DNA of 64,000 nucleotides from Candidatus Kapaibacterium thiocyanatum (GTDB taxonomy: Bacteria; Bacteroidota; Ignavibacteria; Kapaibacteriales; Kapaibacteriaceae), in assembly GCA_001899175.1 (NCBI GenBank), contig MKVH01000003.1:206690-270689 (forward strand), given 5' to 3'. The translations under genes and the position numbers were made by a program. Below the pieces are notes generated by a model that did not search any database, had not been told where the DNA came from, and was given only the letters and a program-made list of their open reading frames with translations. Below are positions 2 to 47,596 of this stretch, in pieces (the stretch's first letter is position 1; every line of letters starts with the position of its first letter).

Positions 2-2356
2 CATTACGAGTCGGAAGCCTACGTCACGGTGAGCGGACAGAACTCCAACAACTCCGTCCGCGTGACCAACGAATTCATGGAAGCCGTCATGAACGACGGC
101 ACGTGGGATCTCGTATGGCGTACCGACAGCACGAAGCGCCGCACCGTACGTGCACGCGACCTGTGGAACAAGATCAACATGAGCGCCTGGAAGAGTGCCG
201 ATCCCGGTCTGCAGTTCGACACGACCATCAACGAATGGCATACGTGTCCGGAAGACGGTCGTATCAACGGATCCAATCCGTGCTCGGAATACATGTTCCT
301 CGATGACACGGCCTGCAACCTCGCTTCGTTGAACCTCGCCCATTTCGTGGACGAGGAGACCGGCCTGTTTCGCGTGGACGACTTCCGTCACGCCACGAGG
401 CTGTGGACCATCGTTCTCGAAGTGTCCGTGCTGATGGCCCAGTTCCCGTCCAAGGAAGTGGCCCGCAAGAGCTTCGAGTTCCGGACGCTCGGCCTCGGCT
501 ATGCCAACCTCGGCACCATCCTCATGGTGGCGGGTATTCCCTATGATTCCCCGAAGGCACTCGCCGTCGCCGGCGCCATCACGTCCCTGCTGACGGGTGA
601 GTCCTATGCCACGTCGGCCGAAATGGCCCGCGACGTGGAGCCGTTCCCCAAGTATGAACGTAACCGCGAACACATGCTTCGCGTGATCCGTAACCACAGG
701 CGTGCAGCATACGATGTGGAGGAAGGACAGTACGAGGGGCTGACCATCACGCCGAAGGGCATTCGGGAGGATCTCGCTCCTGCCGAACTGCTTGGTGCAG
801 CACGGGAGTCATGGGACCGTGCTCTGGCGCTCGGTGAGCAGTATGGGTATCGCAATGCGCAGTCCACCGTCATCGCACCCACGGGTACGATCGGTCTTGT
901 CATGGACTGCGATACGACGGGGATCGAGCCGGACTTCGCCATCGTGAAGTTCAAGAAGCTGGCCGGCGGGGGATACTTCAAGATCGTCAATCAGTCCGTG
1001 CACAAGGCGCTCAAAACCCTTGGCTATACGGACAAGCAGATCGACGACATCGAGAAGTACTGCAAGGGTCACGGAACGCTCGTCGGTTGCCCCGTCATCA
1101 ACCGTCAGTCCCTCAAGGAGCGCGGGTTCACGGACGAGACCATCGAGACCATCGAGAAGAACCTCGATGCCGCCTTCGACATCGCCTTCGTCTTCAACCG
1201 CTATACGATCGGTGATGCCGCCCTGGCCAAGCTCAACCTCAACGGTTGGGATCCCGAGGAGCCGTCCTTCGACCTCCTCCGCGCCTTGGGCTATTCGGAA
1301 CAGGACATCGCCGCCGCCAACGACTACATCTGCGGTACGATGATGATCGAAGGTGCTCCCCACATCAAGGACGAACACCTACCCGTCTTCGACTGCGCCA
1401 ACAAGTGCGGCAAGCGCGGACAACGCTACATCGGATACATGGCTCACGTCAACATGATGGCTGCGGCCCAGCCCTTCATCAGCGGTGCCATCTCCAAGAC
1501 GATCAACATGCCGTCCGAAGCCACCGTCGAGCAGGTCGGCCACGTCCATACGGAATCGTGGAAGATGATGCTCAAGGCCATCGCCCTGTATCGCGACGGT
1601 TCCAAGCTGTCGCAGCCCCTCAACACCAGCAACGTGCAGTACGACGAAATCGTCATGCTCGGCGACGAGGACACGCTGGACGAGACCAAGGGACCGAAGG
1701 AAGTCCATACGCAGATCGTCGAGCGCGTCTACCATCGCGCCGAACGCCGTCATCTTCCCAAGCGCCGTCATGGCTTCCTCCGCGAAGCGTCCGTGGGCGG
1801 TCACAAGATCTATCTGCGTACGGGTGAGTTCGAAGACGGAACGCTCGGCGAGATCTTCATCGACATGTACAAGGAAGGCGCTTCGTTCAAGGGACTCATG
1901 AACTGCTTCGCAGTGCTCGCATCGAAGGCCCTTCAGTACGGCATCCCCCTCGAGGAACTGGTGGATACGTTCACGTTCACGCGATTCGAACCCGCCGGCT
2001 TCGTCGAAGGCCATGATGCCATCAAGAATGCCACGTCGATCCTGGACTACGTCTTCCGCTCCCTCGGATACGACTATCTGAACCGTACGGACTTCGTTCA
2101 CGTCAAGGCCGTCGACGAAGAACCCAAGCATGGAAACCATGGCCACGGTAACACCGCCGACGTCGTCGGTGGTCTGCCTGCAGCCTCCACGGCATCGGCC
2201 GCCCAGCCGGCCAGGCGTCAGACGACGGAGCGCGATATCGCCATCGAAAAGGGATATACGGGCGAATCGTGCAGCGTCTGCAACTCCATGCAGGTGAAGC
2301 GCAACGGCAGTTGCACGGTCTGCGAGAACTGCGGTACCACCAGCGGCTGCTCGTAA
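2..2356 (+). CDS. nrdJ: Adenosylcobalamin-dependent ribonucleotide reductase (class II), 5' end missing
   Basis: The reading frame is open from the first bases of the window, so only the C-terminal 784 residues are visible. Class II reductases reduce ribonucleotides to deoxyribonucleotides in the cytoplasm, using B12 to generate the thiyl radical. The active-site motif NPCSE lies at 275-289, where the Cys, Asn and Glu match the catalytic triad of the family. A second family motif, APTGTIG, lies about 200 residues later. The C-terminus has a linker followed by paired CxxC motifs ([13 protein letters not shown]) typical of the NrdJ zinc-ribbon/redox tail. The GTG at 29 is internal, not the start. 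A hairpin follows the stop. The B12 dependence means the enzyme needs no oxygen. Identification is secure; the upstream control region (possible cobalamin riboswitch) is outside the window. Confidence 0.96.
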
Positions 2357-41862: not shown

Positions 41863-42267
41863 CTACGATCCCATCTGCAGGATCGTCTCGTATTCGGCCT
41901 TCGTGAGCTCGACGACGCTCAGACGTCCGAGACGTACCAGGGCGATGTCGGCCAGACGCTTCTCGGCCTTGATATCCTTCAGCGTCACCGGTGCCTTCAG
42001 AGCCTTGTCGGCCTTGAGATCCACGGCCACCCATGCATCCTCGTCCGTGGTCGGATCCTGATAGGCCGTCTTCACGACCGTGGCGATGCCCACTACCTGA
42101 CGTTCGTCGCCGGAATGGTAGACCAGGACGGAATCGCCCTTCTCCATGGCGCGCAGGTTGTTGCGCGCGGCATAGTTCCGTACGCCATCCCAGTGCGTCT
42201 TCTTGTCCGCCACGAGCTGATCCCAGGAATAGGTCTCGGGTTCGGTCTTCACGAGCCAGTGTTTCAT
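41863..42267 (-). CDS. EVE-domain protein
   Basis: 134 residues, starting MKHWLVKTEPETYSWDQL, the near-invariant opening of EVE proteins, with HWDGVRNYAARNNLRAMEKG and VLVYHSGDERQVVGIA. The EVE fold resembles PUA/YTH domains and is thought to bind modified bases. The substrate is not known here. Its start overlaps the DUF1573 gene by 4 bases. Confidence 0.92.
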   Translation of the reverse strand: MKHWLVKTEPETYSWDQLVADKKTHWDGVRNYAARNNLRAMEKGDSVLVYHSGDERQVVGIATVVKTAYQDPTTDEDAWVAVDLKADKALKAPVTLKDIKAEKRLADIALVRLGRLSVVELTKAEYETILQMGS

Positions 42268-42671
42268 TGCGTTGTATCCTTTGCAGCGATGTGCTTGCGT
42301 ACGACGACGCGTATGACGGAGGGTGAATTCCTGGCGTTGCTGTGGACGGTGAAGTCGACGTTGTTCAGCGAGTCCTTGAAGGACTGTGCGTTGATGCCGA
42401 GACGCAGTTCGCCATAGGTGATGCCCGATGCATGATTGCGCTGGACGGATGCCGAGGCGCAGCCGCACGAGCCCGTGACGCTGGACACGGTGGCGGTACC
42501 CCCGCCCGTATTCACGAACCTCACCCGCGTCACCACGAAGCCGGCCGAGTCGGCATCGACGACGAGGGCGGGAGGGTCGAGCTTCAGCACGGGCGGATCT
42601 TCCTGGGGAATGGCGGCCACGGCCGTCAGGCAGATGAGCAGGAGGGGGAGGAGAAGGGCAGGTCGTGTCAT
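42264..42671 (-). CDS. DUF1573-like exported protein
   Basis: 135 residues with signal peptide (MTRPALLLPLLLICLTAVAA) and a single beta-sandwich domain: VVTRVRFVNTGGGTATVSSVTGSCGCA carries the family hallmark, the Cys pair CGC of DUF1573 proteins. These are abundant, uncharacterised secreted proteins in Bacteroidota. Its ATG overlaps the dapB stop (ATGA), so it is translated with dapB. Confidence 0.85.
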   Translation of the reverse strand: MTRPALLLPLLLICLTAVAAIPQEDPPVLKLDPPALVVDADSAGFVVTRVRFVNTGGGTATVSSVTGSCGCASASVQRNHASGITYGELRLGINAQSFKDSLNNVDFTVHSNARNSPSVIRVVVRKHIAAKDTTQ

Positions 42672-43450: not shown

Positions 43451-44125
43451 TCAAGCGGCGGACGGTTCTTTTACTGTCAGGATTCCTTCGGACAGCGCGA
43501 GGTGGCGTGCATCGGGAAACGTCTCGGTCAGGGCCATGCCGTGCGTCGAAAGGACGAGGGTGATGCCCTGTTCGTGGAGGGTGCGCAGTCTGGCGGACAC
43601 GGCGAGTGCCGTGGCCCGGTCCATCGCTCCCGTCGGTTCGTCGGCGATGAGGACGGCCGGACGTGCGGCGATGGCTCGTGCAAGAGCTGCGAGGTGCCGT
43701 TCACCTTCGGAGAGCTGTCCTGGGAACTTGTTGCGGATATAGCTCACGTCGAGATCGGCAAGGACTTCCAGGCAGCGCCGGTTGGCGTCAGCCTTGTCAT
43801 GGCCGTGAATGGCCAGAGCCATGAGGACGTTGTCGTGCACCGTATAGTCGTCGACCATACGGCAGCCTTGTTGCACGATGCCGATCGTGCGGCGTAGGGC
43901 GCGTACGGCCGGAGGTTTCATGGATGTCGTGGGGACGCCGTCGATGACGACGTGGCCCGAACTCGGCAGCAGGTCGGCATAGAGCAGGCGCAGGAGCGTC
44001 GTCTTGCCGGAGCCCGTAGGGCCCGTGAGGAGCGTACACGATCCGCCGGGAATGGAACACGATACGTTCTGAAGGGCGGGAATGTCGCCGTGCCGTACCG
44101 TGGCGTCGTCGAGAATGAAGTCCAT
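43451..44125 (-). CDS. ftsE: FtsE-like ABC transporter ATPase
   Basis: 224 residues starting MDFILDDATV. Walker A GPTGSGKTT, Q-loop VQQGCRM, signature LSEGERH (Glu instead of the usual Gly of LSGGQ), Walker B VLIADEPTGA and the switch His in LVLSTHG. The close match to FtsE suggests a partner FtsX that opens amidases at the septum, but no FtsX is next to it. Other cell-division or lipoprotein-type (LolD) ATPases are possible. It is the last gene before the low-GC cassette. Confidence 0.82.
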   Translation of the reverse strand: MDFILDDATVRHGDIPALQNVSCSIPGGSCTLLTGPTGSGKTTLLRLLYADLLPSSGHVVIDGVPTTSMKPPAVRALRRTIGIVQQGCRMVDDYTVHDNVLMALAIHGHDKADANRRCLEVLADLDVSYIRNKFPGQLSEGERHLAALARAIAARPAVLIADEPTGAMDRATALAVSARLRTLHEQGITLVLSTHGMALTETFPDARHLALSEGILTVKEPSAA

Positions 44126-44318
44126 GCCGCGAAAATAGTGAATGGAGAGGAGAATAGTCCAGTGCAATTCTAACCATGTTGAGTGAATGACGTGCTAACC
44201 CATTATGGGACGGGATGTTGGCATACTTGTCGACAACATTAGTGTATTATCCATAGAATAAAATAGTTAATATGGTAATCCGTTATAGATCTTTTTGCTA
44301 CTATTTGTGAGGATGAAG
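44126..44318. promoter_or_regulatory. AT-rich leader of the low-GC cassette
   Basis: About 190 bases, strongly A+T-rich for this genome (TATTATCCATAGAATAAAATAG near 44242-44263). It must hold the promoters for the cassette and, on the other strand, for the FtsE-like gene. No repeat or attachment site was seen at either cassette edge. Confidence 0.45.
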
Positions 44319-44987
44319 ATGGCAGACAAACACCCATACGTAAGCGGAACAGGAGTGCTGATCCAGGTATTTGATCATCTAAAGAAGTCGTTCCCGCAGA
44401 CCCTTAAAGCCGAAGTGCTAAAGCAGTTGGGATTCGCTCCCCAGAATGAAAGCTACGTTCTTAACGTAATACGTTATTTGAGGTTGATTGATAATGAGGG
44501 TGCAAGGACAGAGGCAGCTCAGAGAACATTCACATTGCATGATAGCGGTGAGTTTGAACGACAATTCTCTGATATGATTAAGTCAGCGTACGAAGGTTTG
44601 TTCTCACTACATGGAGACGATGCATGGAACCTTGAGGATTCCAAGTTGATCACCTTCTTTCGTCAAACAGATCAATCATCAGAACTTGTCGGCAAGCGCC
44701 AAGCGGGTACCTTCAAGGCTTTGGCTACATATGCCGGACATGCTAAGCAATTGCCAGCCCGAAAGACTGCTGCAAAAAAAAGTACTTATGCAACAAAGGC
44801 TAAGCAAGTAGGATCTAAGATGGAGGGAAGTACTCCACCCGCACTAGTTCTTCCAGCTGGTGGCAGTACGACCAACGGGAATATTAGTCTTGCAGTCCGG
44901 GTAGAGATTAACCTCCCAACTACGGGTGACCAGGACGTGTACGACAAGATCTTTAGAAGTATCCGTGACAATCTCCTGAGTAGTTGA
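44319..44987 (+). CDS. DUF5343-type protein of the AT-richer cassette
   Basis: 222 residues beginning MADKHPYVSGTGVLIQVFDHL; GTGAGG lies 6 bases before the ATG. The N-terminal 150 residues (LKAEVLKQLGF, VLNVIRYLRLID, then FERQFSDMIKSAYEGLFS) follow the DUF5343 pattern, a winged-helix-like domain. A Lys/Ala/Ser-rich linker (about residues 150-175) leads to a small C-terminal strand/helix segment (VRVEINLPTTGDQDVYDKIF). The gene is about 45-50% GC by eye, clearly below its neighbours, and its promoter region 44126-44318 is A+T-rich, so it was probably acquired. It is followed after 1 base by the TIGR02391-like gene. Confidence 0.82.
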   Translation: MADKHPYVSGTGVLIQVFDHLKKSFPQTLKAEVLKQLGFAPQNESYVLNVIRYLRLIDNEGARTEAAQRTFTLHDSGEFERQFSDMIKSAYEGLFSLHGDDAWNLEDSKLITFFRQTDQSSELVGKRQAGTFKALATYAGHAKQLPARKTAAKKSTYATKAKQVGSKMEGSTPPALVLPAGGSTTNGNISLAVRVEINLPTTGDQDVYDKIFRSIRDNLLSS

Positions 44988-44988
44988 A

Positions 44989-45483
44989 ATGTTGATCCGA
45001 TTTGAGAGTATTGCTAGGTCTGTAGCACGCTGGAGTTACGGGGATAGCTCACTAACTCCGATTATACATCCATTTGATTCAAGGGACATACATCCTTGTT
45101 TCCCGATGAATGTGCGTCAACTATTCGACAACGGGCATTATACACAGGCCACGTTTGAAGCCTTCAAATTCATTGATAAACAGGTAGCGAAACTGTCCAC
45201 TTCGAGCGAGAGCGGTAAGAAATTGATGATGACGGCATTTAGTGAAATATCACCGTCGATAAGGCTAAATGCATGCTCGTCTACCTCAGAAAGAGACGAG
45301 CAGGAGGGATATAAGTTCTTGTTTGCAGGCTCTATTATTGCCATTCGAAATCCTCGTGGTCATGAGTATGATATACATGATTCACCTGGTGAATGCCTTG
45401 ACTACCTTGCTCTTGCTTCGCTGCTATTACGCCGTCTTCAGCAAGCAGGGTTCGAGATCAAGGCAAAAACAAGAAGTAAGTAA
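44989..45483 (+). CDS. TIGR02391/Ymh-type protein with HEPN-like R-x4-H motif
   Basis: 164 residues, starting 1 base after the DUF5343 gene's stop, so coupled to it. FEAFKFIDKQVAKLS and the text SIIAIRNPRGHEY match TIGR02391 (Hypoth_Ymh). The Arg120-x4-His125 pattern (RNPRGH) is like the catalytic R-x4-6-H of HEPN ribonucleases, though the same motif is not proof of nuclease activity. HEPN proteins are frequent in antiphage, abortive-infection and toxin-antitoxin systems. Low GC as in its partner. Together they form the only foreign-looking module here. Confidence 0.8.
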   Translation: MLIRFESIARSVARWSYGDSSLTPIIHPFDSRDIHPCFPMNVRQLFDNGHYTQATFEAFKFIDKQVAKLSTSSESGKKLMMTAFSEISPSIRLNACSSTSERDEQEGYKFLFAGSIIAIRNPRGHEYDIHDSPGECLDYLALASLLLRRLQQAGFEIKAKTRSK

Positions 45484-45487
45484 TATC

Positions 45488-46555
45488 CTATTCGTTCGGG
45501 ACGGGCTCGGTGCGGGGTGCGGATCCGCCCATGAGAATGGCCAGGGGGCGTGTGCCCGGAATCGCATCCAGGATGGTCTGGATCACGGCCATGATGGGGA
45601 CGGACAGGATCATGCCGACGATGCCCCACATCCAGCCCCAGAAGATGAGGGAGATGAGGACGACGACCGGGCTGAGATCCAGGCTCTGGCCCATGACCTT
45701 GGGTTCGATGACGTTGCCGATGACGTTCTGGATGACGATGAGGATGGCCACGACGAGGGCGGCATGGCCGAACGATCCCGTCTGCACCAGGGCGATGGCT
45801 CCCGGCAGTGCCGTCGTGATGAACGAACCGATGTTCGGGATGTAATGGAATAGAAATGCCAGCAGGCCGACGAGGGGGGCGAAGTCGACATCGAAGATGG
45901 CCATCACGGCCCATACGATAAGACCGTTCACCAGGTTGAAGAGCGTCTTGACGCGCAGATACTGCAACACCTTCCTGTTCACCGTATCGTAGATCTGGAC
46001 GAGGTCCATGGACCCCATCGATCCTGCGGCCGCCTGCAGTTTCTTCGAGAACAGTTCGCTTGACGAGATCATGAAGACGAGATAGAGCAGCACGAGGAAA
46101 CCGTCACCGAGGAACGAGACGACGCTACCCACCGTGCTGGTGGCCGCCGACGTGATCGTCTGCATGTCGAGCATGGTATCCCAGCGCAGGGCCGACGAGC
46201 GCCCCGTCATCTGGAACGACATCCGTTGCAGCATACCGTTCATCTGCACGTTCAGGTCGGCGAGGCGCTGCTGGTAGACCGGGGCCTTCTCGATGGCCGA
46301 GCTGACGCCCGCAGCGGAGATCGTATAGATACCCCACAGCGCCCCCGAAGCGATGAGCATCACCACCACGAGGCAGACGGCCATGGGAAACTTCCATGAA
46401 CGCAACTTGCTGACCAGGGGGCGGAAGAGGATGGAAAGGAGTCCTGCGAGGACGAATGGAATCAGGATGCTGTGCAGGACGTAGAGCGCTGCCGCGGCGG
46501 CGATCACGGCGAGAACGATGGCGGCGATGGCCGCCGGACGCAGTACTGGATTCAT
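45488..46555 (-). CDS. AI-2E family transporter (PerM-like)
   Basis: 355 residues, with eight hydrophobic segments. FVLAGLLSILFRPLVSKL near the N-terminus and YIPNIGSFITTALPGAI, VIGNVIEPKVMGQSLDLSP toward the C-terminus match the AI-2E/UPF0118 family. Family members export the quorum signal in some bacteria or Na+ and other ions in others; the substrate is not determined. Its stop lies 4 bases from the cassette's end, converging with it. Confidence 0.9.
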   Translation of the reverse strand: MNPVLRPAAIAAIVLAVIAAAAALYVLHSILIPFVLAGLLSILFRPLVSKLRSWKFPMAVCLVVVMLIASGALWGIYTISAAGVSSAIEKAPVYQQRLADLNVQMNGMLQRMSFQMTGRSSALRWDTMLDMQTITSAATSTVGSVVSFLGDGFLVLLYLVFMISSSELFSKKLQAAAGSMGSMDLVQIYDTVNRKVLQYLRVKTLFNLVNGLIVWAVMAIFDVDFAPLVGLLAFLFHYIPNIGSFITTALPGAIALVQTGSFGHAALVVAILIVIQNVIGNVIEPKVMGQSLDLSPVVVLISLIFWGWMWGIVGMILSVPIMAVIQTILDAIPGTRPLAILMGGSAPRTEPVPNE

Positions 46556-46621: not shown

Positions 46622-47596
46622 ATGCAACGTGGTCCGATTTCACGATTCATGGAAGAACAGTACCTGCACTTCAATGCAGCGGCCCTGGTCGACGCGGCCA
46701 AGGGATACGAACGTCATCTCGCAGAAGGCGGCAAGATGATGATCACGCTCGCCGGTGCCATGAGTACAGCAGAGCTCGGGAAGACGCTCGCAGAGATGAT
46801 CCGCCAGGACAAGGTCCAGATCATCTCCTGTACGGGAGCGAACCTCGAAGAGGACATCATGAACCTCGTGGCCCATTCCCACTACAAGCGCGTGCCGCAC
46901 TACCGCGACCTGAGCCCGCAGGACGAATGGGATCTGCTCGAGCATGGCTTCAACCGCGTCACCGATACCTGCATTCCCGAAGAAGAAGCGTTCCGCCGTA
47001 TCCAGAAGCACATCCACAAACAGTGGAAGCAGGCCCAGGATGCAGGCGAGCGGTTCTTCCCGCACGAGTACATGTACAAGATGCTCCTGAGCGGCGAGAT
47101 GGAGCAGTACTACGAAATCGATCCGAAGAATTCGTGGATGATCGCGGCTGCCGAGAAGAACCTGCCCATCATCGTGCCCGGATGGGAAGATTCCACGATG
47201 GGCAACATCTTCGCTTCCTACTGCATCAAGGGTGAGCTCCAGCCGAGCGTGATGAAGAGTGGTATCGAATACATGACGTGGCTCGCCAGGTGGTACATCG
47301 AGAATTCCGGTGGCAAGGGCATCGGCTTCTTCCAGATCGGTGGCGGCATCGCCGGCGACTTCCCGATCTGCGTCGTGCCGATGCTGTACCAGGACATGGA
47401 GATGGAAGACATTCCGTTCTGGTCCTACTTCTGCCAGATCTCGGACAGCACGACGTCGTACGGCTCCTATTCGGGCGCCGTTCCTAATGAAAAGATCACA
47501 TGGGGTAAGCTCGGAATCGATACGCCGAAGTTCATCATCGAGTCCGACGCTACGATTGTTGCACCACTAGTATTTGCGTGGCTCCTTGGATACTAA
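46622..47596 (+). CDS. Deoxyhypusine synthase-like enzyme
   Basis: 324 residues. MITLAGAMSTAELGKTLAEMI, CTGANLEEDI, VPGWEDSTMGN and FFQIGGGIAGDF follow the deoxyhypusine synthase fold. The catalytic Lys of this family is present as Lys296 in TWGKL. Bacteria lack eIF5A, so the product is probably a polyamine derivative such as homospermidine rather than deoxyhypusine (inference from reports for bacterial homologues). NAD is the expected cofactor. AGGAG lies about 12 bases before the ATG. Its 3' end overlaps the TonB receptor gene by 23 bases. Confidence 0.88.
   Translation: MQRGPISRFMEEQYLHFNAAALVDAAKGYERHLAEGGKMMITLAGAMSTAELGKTLAEMIRQDKVQIISCTGANLEEDIMNLVAHSHYKRVPHYRDLSPQDEWDLLEHGFNRVTDTCIPEEEAFRRIQKHIHKQWKQAQDAGERFFPHEYMYKMLLSGEMEQYYEIDPKNSWMIAAAEKNLPIIVPGWEDSTMGNIFASYCIKGELQPSVMKSGIEYMTWLARWYIENSGGKGIGFFQIGGGIAGDFPICVVPMLYQDMEMEDIPFWSYFCQISDSTTSYGSYSGAVPNEKITWGKLGIDTPKFIIESDATIVAPLVFAWLLGY

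Follow-up and report, generated by a model that had tools for sequence, protein, structure and literature searches.

Among the candidate phage defence systems in PADLOC, PDC-M34 combines a DUF5343 protein (M34A) with a Swt1-type HEPN protein (M34B). No paper on PDC-M34 among those listed, and none naming DUF5343 or TIGR02391, was found in a literature search conducted mostly outside subscription journals and bioRxiv, and among publications on HEPN proteins in connection with Argonaute, winged-helix proteins or Swt1 none concerned the pair described here, judged by title or beginning of the abstract. R-x4-H-x-Y is the motif of the MNT-HEPN toxin-antitoxin systems. In Anantharaman et al. (2013, PMC3710099), the Ymh and Swt1-like domains are placed in the HEPN superfamily with predicted RNase activity, Ymh is described in operons with restriction systems, and fusions of Ymh to paraMORC, AbiJ-NTD and AbiTii are given. 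A 2026 paper (PMC12839542) reports structural homology of BrxA with both FokI and SspB. The PADLOC candidates PDC-M63 and PDC-S04 were inactive when tested, according to PMC12409345.

The window, i.e. the whole stretch of 64,000 nucleotides of Candidatus Kapaibacterium thiocyanatum that was analysed, contains a cassette of a DUF5343 gene and a Ymh/TIGR02391-family gene (Table 1). The DUF5343 protein matches PDC-M34A (PDLC04589) with an E-value of 1.9e-29 over residues 3-221, and the gene order, the conserved tail and the HEPN protein in second place agree with PDC-M34. The second protein, in contrast, matches no M34B model up to an E-value of 1 and belongs to PF09509, not PF18731. Because this match is missing, the pair is classified as a variant and not as a member of PDC-M34; by sequence, it is an effector-swapped variant. 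An earlier note on this DNA knew of no characterised system built from this exact pair; a sister system, PDC-M34, is already in PADLOC.

Two further PADLOC models are matched by the Ymh protein over part of their length only, namely PD-Lambda-3_B (E 7e-14, model positions 138-263 of 270) and Aga_HEPN of short Argonaute systems (E 4.1e-11, model positions 254-380 of 382). The C-terminal HEPN family with R-x4-H is shared with both, but the window protein is stand-alone (164 aa), and its neighbours are DUF5343 and AI-2E genes instead of an Argonaute. A predicted HEPN-like fold, a two-gene operon and a motif (RNPRGHEY) fitting R-x4-H-x-Y are common to the pair and MNT-HEPN. Unlike there, the partner is DUF5343 (PF17278) without a nucleotidyltransferase match, and the tyrosine is kept in only 3 of the 6 Ymh-type pairs (determined by eye).

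The cassette and its insertion site

The cassette (44126-45487) occupies exactly the interval between two host genes: the ATG of the ABC gene begins at 44125 on the minus strand and the stop codon of the AI-2E gene is located at 45488-45490. Both cassette ORFs are on the plus strand with a gap of 1 base, the HEPN stop is 4 bases away from the AI-2E stop codon, and the cassette is antisense to both flanking genes. The Ymh protein scores 104 bits against PF09509 (cut-off 25) and 79.5 bits against TIGR02391 (cut-off 39.45). The host genome contains a single match each to the DUF5343 and Ymh families. The GC content of the cassette is 44.3%, compared to a mean of 60.3% (sd 1.7%, minimum 55.1%) for non-overlapping windows of 1362 bases, which gives a z of about -9.4; elsewhere in the window, no stretch is below 53% GC at a step of 100 bases. 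GC3 is 42-45% in the cassette genes; the four host genes used for comparison have 74-85%. Thus, the borders, the two coupled genes with their family identities, the lowered GC content, the AT-rich leader and the R-x4-H motif were all recovered as the earlier note had given them.

Table 1. Features of the cassette and its surroundings, in window positions
Feature	Position	Strand	Remarks
EVE-domain protein	41863-42468	-	PF01878, E 3.6e-46
FtsE/LolD-like ABC ATPase (flank)	43451-44125	-	intact; follows AI-2E gene in relatives
AT-rich leader	44126-44312	+	38.5% GC
Perfect 10-bp palindrome	44227-44236		TTGTCGACAA; overlaps promoter-like site
Promoter-like site	44230-44259		TCGACA-18-TAGAAT; in leader
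DUF5343 gene	44313-44987	+	224 aa; PF17278, E 2.2e-14 (above curated cut-off)
DUF5343 C-terminal tail	44895-44984	+	in HEPN-paired forms; absent from long DUF5343 proteins
Ymh/TIGR02391-family HEPN gene	44989-45483	+	164 aa; PF09509, E 6e-30; TIGR02391, E 2.2e-22
R-x4-H codons	45346-45363	+	RNPRGH, residues 120-125 of the Ymh protein
AI-2E family transporter (flank)	45488-46555	-	intact
Bacterial deoxyhypusine synthase homologue	46622-47596	+	PF01916, E 1.4e-40

Eight of the 22 other genomes of the family, including the one same-genus genome, were examined at the corresponding site. In all eight, the AI-2E and ABC genes lie next to each other on one strand without the cassette between them, with spacings from a 4-base overlap to 37 bases, and no DUF5343 or Ymh match was found in these stretches. 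Since the empty site is clean in 8/8 family relatives taken, the lateral gain proposed in the earlier note is well supported by this genome comparison. In the same-genus genome, no DUF5343 or Ymh match was obtained anywhere at an E-value of 0.001. Two of the eight relatives have family members at other places, i.e. a Swt1-type pair on another contig (G402, locus L036) and a Ymh match elsewhere in the genome (G059).

Insertion by a transposon or an integron was considered for the window site and rejected: as already noted earlier, there are no border repeats (none of ≥ 10 bases pairing both cassette ends), and no attC-like site follows the HEPN gene. The integron route is also disfavoured by the best integrase of the host, which reaches 86 bits against a TIGR02249 cut-off of 265. 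The EVE domain, which is encoded further upstream in the window, is often tied to reading modified nucleotides.

Recurrence of the pair and its neighbourhoods

In total, 22 small DUF5343 genes were found, of which 20 were scorable. The scan of genome contigs gave loci from Nitrospiraceae (L019) and Actinomycetes (L020) as well as the truncated L021; one locus (L018/L036) was obtained by searching the proteins of 60 relatives, and L078 was taken from IMG/VR. Counting the host, family matches occur in 14 of 395 genomes of the phylum, 11 of 294 of the class and 4 of 395 of a second class. Left out of the pair count were L021 (contig ends inside DUF5343), L097/L084 (HEPN gene cut by the contig end; its remaining portion fits the Swt1-type profile with E 1.3e-19) and L089/L102 (partial match of 41 residues below the cut-off). 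Nine loci with long DUF5343 genes (L027-L035) were kept apart as control.

A HEPN gene is located directly downstream in 20/20 scorable loci, so that the pair recurs as the unit the earlier note had taken it for. The genes overlap in 16 pairs, are separated by 1-4 bases in three, and by 99 bases in one (L022); R-x4-H is intact in 19/20. The second gene is of the Ymh type in six pairs (window, L019, L020, L078, L100 and L101) and a Swt1-type HEPN in 14. No match to profiles of either kind was obtained around the nine long DUF5343 genes, within 14 randomly chosen stretches or at the eight empty sites. Of the 14 Swt1-type assignments, six were scanned with Pfam (five above the PF18731 cut-off, the truncated L036 below) and five, L036 included, with PADLOC (5/5 match PDC-M34B); the remaining ones were made by aligning 13 Swt1-type proteins. 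A profile comparison between the Ymh and Swt1-type HEPN families detected no similarity (probability 0.8%).

In the tree of the DUF5343 proteins, calculated without the short frames of L098 and L099, the Ymh-paired proteins form one clade (support 100/100), which spans at least three phyla, i.e. Nitrospirota, Actinomycetota and the phylum of the window, plus a viral contig. Under midpoint rooting, which does not fix the root, this clade is nested among the Swt1-paired DUF5343 proteins. The topology fits one old effector swap with subsequent horizontal spread. Partner distances were compared by Mantel tests without L022, L036, L098 and L099: r is 0.75 for the six Ymh-type pairs (reached by 11 of 2000 permutations) and 0.94 for ten Swt1-type pairs (reached by 0 of 2000), values for which co-transfer alone would suffice.

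DUF5343 was not found in plasmids (three queries), phages (one query) or E. coli (L078 DNA as query), and scans of viral contigs with DUF5343 queries returned no relative except L078 itself. For Ymh, 31 plasmid and two phage records contain relatives, none spanning 80% of the query. Two loci deviate in their reading frames. In L036 (G402, family of the host; 74-625, minus strand) the Swt1-type HEPN ORF ends just before R-x4-H, which indicates either an inactivated toxin or an assembly error. In L022 (5986-7191, plus strand) the conserved DUF5343 tail is in another frame, with 99 bases left before the HEPN gene.

Around the 20 pairs (up to 5 kb away), 144 ORFs were compared with PADLOC at E 1e-10 and matched 65 families, many of which are several models for one protein. 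A separate scan was made for each of 20 of these ORFs; the others, including the window neighbours, were scanned as a pool (25 of the 65 families listed). Eight of the 20 single ORFs, at seven loci, had matches, i.e. at least 8/144 ORFs and at least 7/20 loci. Individually assigned at loci of relatives were an Mrr type IV enzyme (near L019), a type III methyltransferase (L098), IetA and IetS (L101), HerA (L099), a ThsA/DSR2-like protein (L105), a patatin-type phospholipase (L104) and a weak SIR2 match (L094), of which HerA alone or the phospholipase alone is weak evidence for defence. A random control of 133 ORFs (14 stretches from 12 of the same genomes; scanned without two ORFs) matched six families in at most seven ORFs (mad3 twice, two ShosA models, PsyrA, DndA and SspA), and the 84 ORFs around the long DUF5343 genes also matched six (mad3, SspA, DndA and RtcR models). 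By ORF count, at least 8/144 near the pairs and at most 7/133 in the random control are not clearly different, and the context argument for defence is therefore weaker. We judged the neighbours of the pairs to differ from the controls in kind, the control models matching housekeeping genes too. Recurrence near defence-type genes, which the earlier note had suggested to look for, was thus seen in at least 7/20 loci, but without a clear excess by ORF count. The antiphage role it had proposed has the neighbour context and the PADLOC candidate list in its favour, with the same reservation about the controls; the inactivity of the PADLOC candidates PDC-M63 and PDC-S04 counts against it.

Concerning mobility, the L078 pair lies in a phage-like element; it is preceded by a phage-type integrase, and a weak HTH_17 match and a DUF3987 gene come after it. 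L096 (G532:C49) and L100 (G579:C1) are about 0.3 and 4 kb, respectively, from integron integrases above the curated cut-off. The 3' end of L100 carries an exact RYYYAAC/GTTRRRY pair, the only one among 20 pairs under the strict attC rule, compared to 1/271 control ORF ends; a relaxed rule, set after viewing the sequences, gave 5/20 against 16/271. Accordingly, only L096 and L100, which are near integrases, are called integron-associated. Three ORFs of L096 have attC-like ends by the relaxed rule, and its pair may be an integron cassette.

Predicted structures and proposed function

The AlphaFold model of the Ymh protein (mean pLDDT 90.8) is all helical, with R-x4-H at the end of helix 99-125. 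HEPN proteins were the best among 264 re-aligned PDB chains: 2hsb reached Z 9.3 over 108 residues, followed by sacsin HEPN (7.9), HEPN toxins (7.3 to 6.9) and AbiV (5.3), although helical bundles may score this high by chance. HEPN or AbiV appears in the titles of 9 of the top 13 re-aligned matches; Foldseek alone gave no significant hit (E 0.67). As such Z values can be reached by chance, most weight is given to the family matches and to the motif, whose R120 and H125 are invariant in 17/17 aligned Ymh sequences. According to the model, the second protein has a HEPN-like fold, and the earlier note's view of a HEPN protein, for which a fold lacking such helices around R-x4-H would have been fatal, stands. 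From sequence and model together, the protein is predicted to be an RNase effector.

The DUF5343 protein is predicted to consist of an HTH-containing, DNA-binding-like domain (residues 1-148; pLDDT 92-96 for 51-140), a disordered linker (151-194; pLDDT < 50) and the conserved tail (195-224) with a C-terminal helix (207-222). The four best of 997 re-aligned chains were FokI (Z 6.4, 137 residues), SspB (5.3, 144 residues), BrxA (5.0, 132 residues) and PaqCI (3.9, 130 residues), all Z scores being below the safe level of the tool; GntR and MarR regulators followed, covering about 57-77 residues. The N-terminal domain may thus resemble, at modest Z, the two-HTH domains of BrxA, SspB and FokI over 132-144 residues, but a profile comparison found no sequence similarity to BrxA, and the window flanks are transporter genes. 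Foldseek and a comparison with viral models found nothing significant for this model. The sequence profile weakly matches 1ku9 (E 0.0012), which we take to be a winged-helix protein. The predicted fold and this one match moderately support the DNA-binding partner suggested in the earlier note. The tail is conserved in DUF5343 proteins of both effector types (strict pattern in 19/20 pairs, with L023 missed by one letter) and absent from 9/9 long DUF5343 proteins. Since it is constant across effectors, its role may be to connect DUF5343 molecules with each other and not to bind one particular HEPN family.

The earlier note had left open an antiphage or a toxin-antitoxin module. We favour, with a probability somewhat under one half (about 0.47), a defence module of two laterally acquired genes, one for a sensor and one for an effector, which would be related to PDC-M34 but with the effector swapped. 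DUF5343 would read DNA through an HTH module of the FokI/BrxA/SspB type, followed by a flexible linker and a strand-helix tail that would couple the protein to the effector or to itself. Co-translated with the Ymh HEPN RNase, it would probably form a silent complex; upon engaging foreign DNA, or losing its normal site, it would release or activate the RNase, which would cut RNA, so that growth would stop and the phage could not multiply. DNA binding, complex formation, RNA cleavage, trigger and protection are all inferred. Held more tentatively is a generalisation in which DUF5343 would be a general DNA-reading sensor with a BrxA/FokI/SspB-like fold, licensing interchangeable Ymh and Swt1 HEPN RNases via one tail, answering foreign or wrongly modified DNA with RNA destruction, and moving via integrons, phage-like elements and bare insertions. 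If the sensor-effector reading is true, defence modules as small as about 1.2 kb would form a family that combines one sensor with swappable RNases, it would be explained what DUF5343 is for, and DNA recognition of the restriction and BREX type would be linked to RNA-cleaving immunity. In the window the insertion is natural and clean, with eight relatives for comparison in which the site is empty, and the effector swap would allow one to test directly in which part specificity resides.

The main rival, which we consider less probable than the defence module, is a classical toxin-antitoxin system. Here, DUF5343 would be a labile antitoxin repressing its own promoter via the HTH, and its loss, not DNA sensing, would free the HEPN toxin, with a role in stabilisation or stress. 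The small, overlapping genes, of which the first encodes the HTH-like protein, the co-divergence of the partners and the state of L036 and L022, as in decaying toxin loci, agree with this. So does the palindrome over the promoter-like site in the two-gene operon of the window (Table 1), a possible operator; promoter-like matches in the leader are not more numerous than in shuffled sequences. However, this palindrome was not found in the leaders of the other Ymh-type loci, and a shared operator was rejected, as the palindromes of ≥ 10 bp upstream of some loci have none in common. Also speaking against an antitoxin are the one conserved tail, which serves two HEPN families without detectable relationship, and the nearest folds of DUF5343, which belong to DNA-binding proteins from restriction and defence systems.

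DUF5343 might instead sense RNA, a protein or a small ligand, using its HTH-like fold for other contacts within what would still be an abortive-infection RNase system. Winged helices can bind RNA or proteins, and the fold similarity is modest, but FokI, SspB, BrxA and PaqCI, the four best re-aligned matches, all act on DNA, which makes this unlikely. Least probable is a selfish or decaying passenger without benefit to the host. The single copy, its absence from the one same-genus genome searched and the two related pairs that look broken would suit a passenger, but both window ORFs and the catalytic motif are intact, and even between phyla the identity of the Ymh-type pairs to the window pair is still 39-57%.

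Longer relatives of both proteins were seen. The long DUF5343 proteins (L027-L035, 376-595 aa) lack a HEPN partner; by eye, a response-regulator-like ORF lies beside at least 5/9 and a cysteine-desulfurase-like gene beside at least 4/9, and they probably have a different function. In L069, L070 and L073, a Ymh HEPN domain forms the C-terminus of proteins of 549-570 aa, which, judged by eye, may correspond to the paraMORC fusions of Anantharaman et al. (2013).
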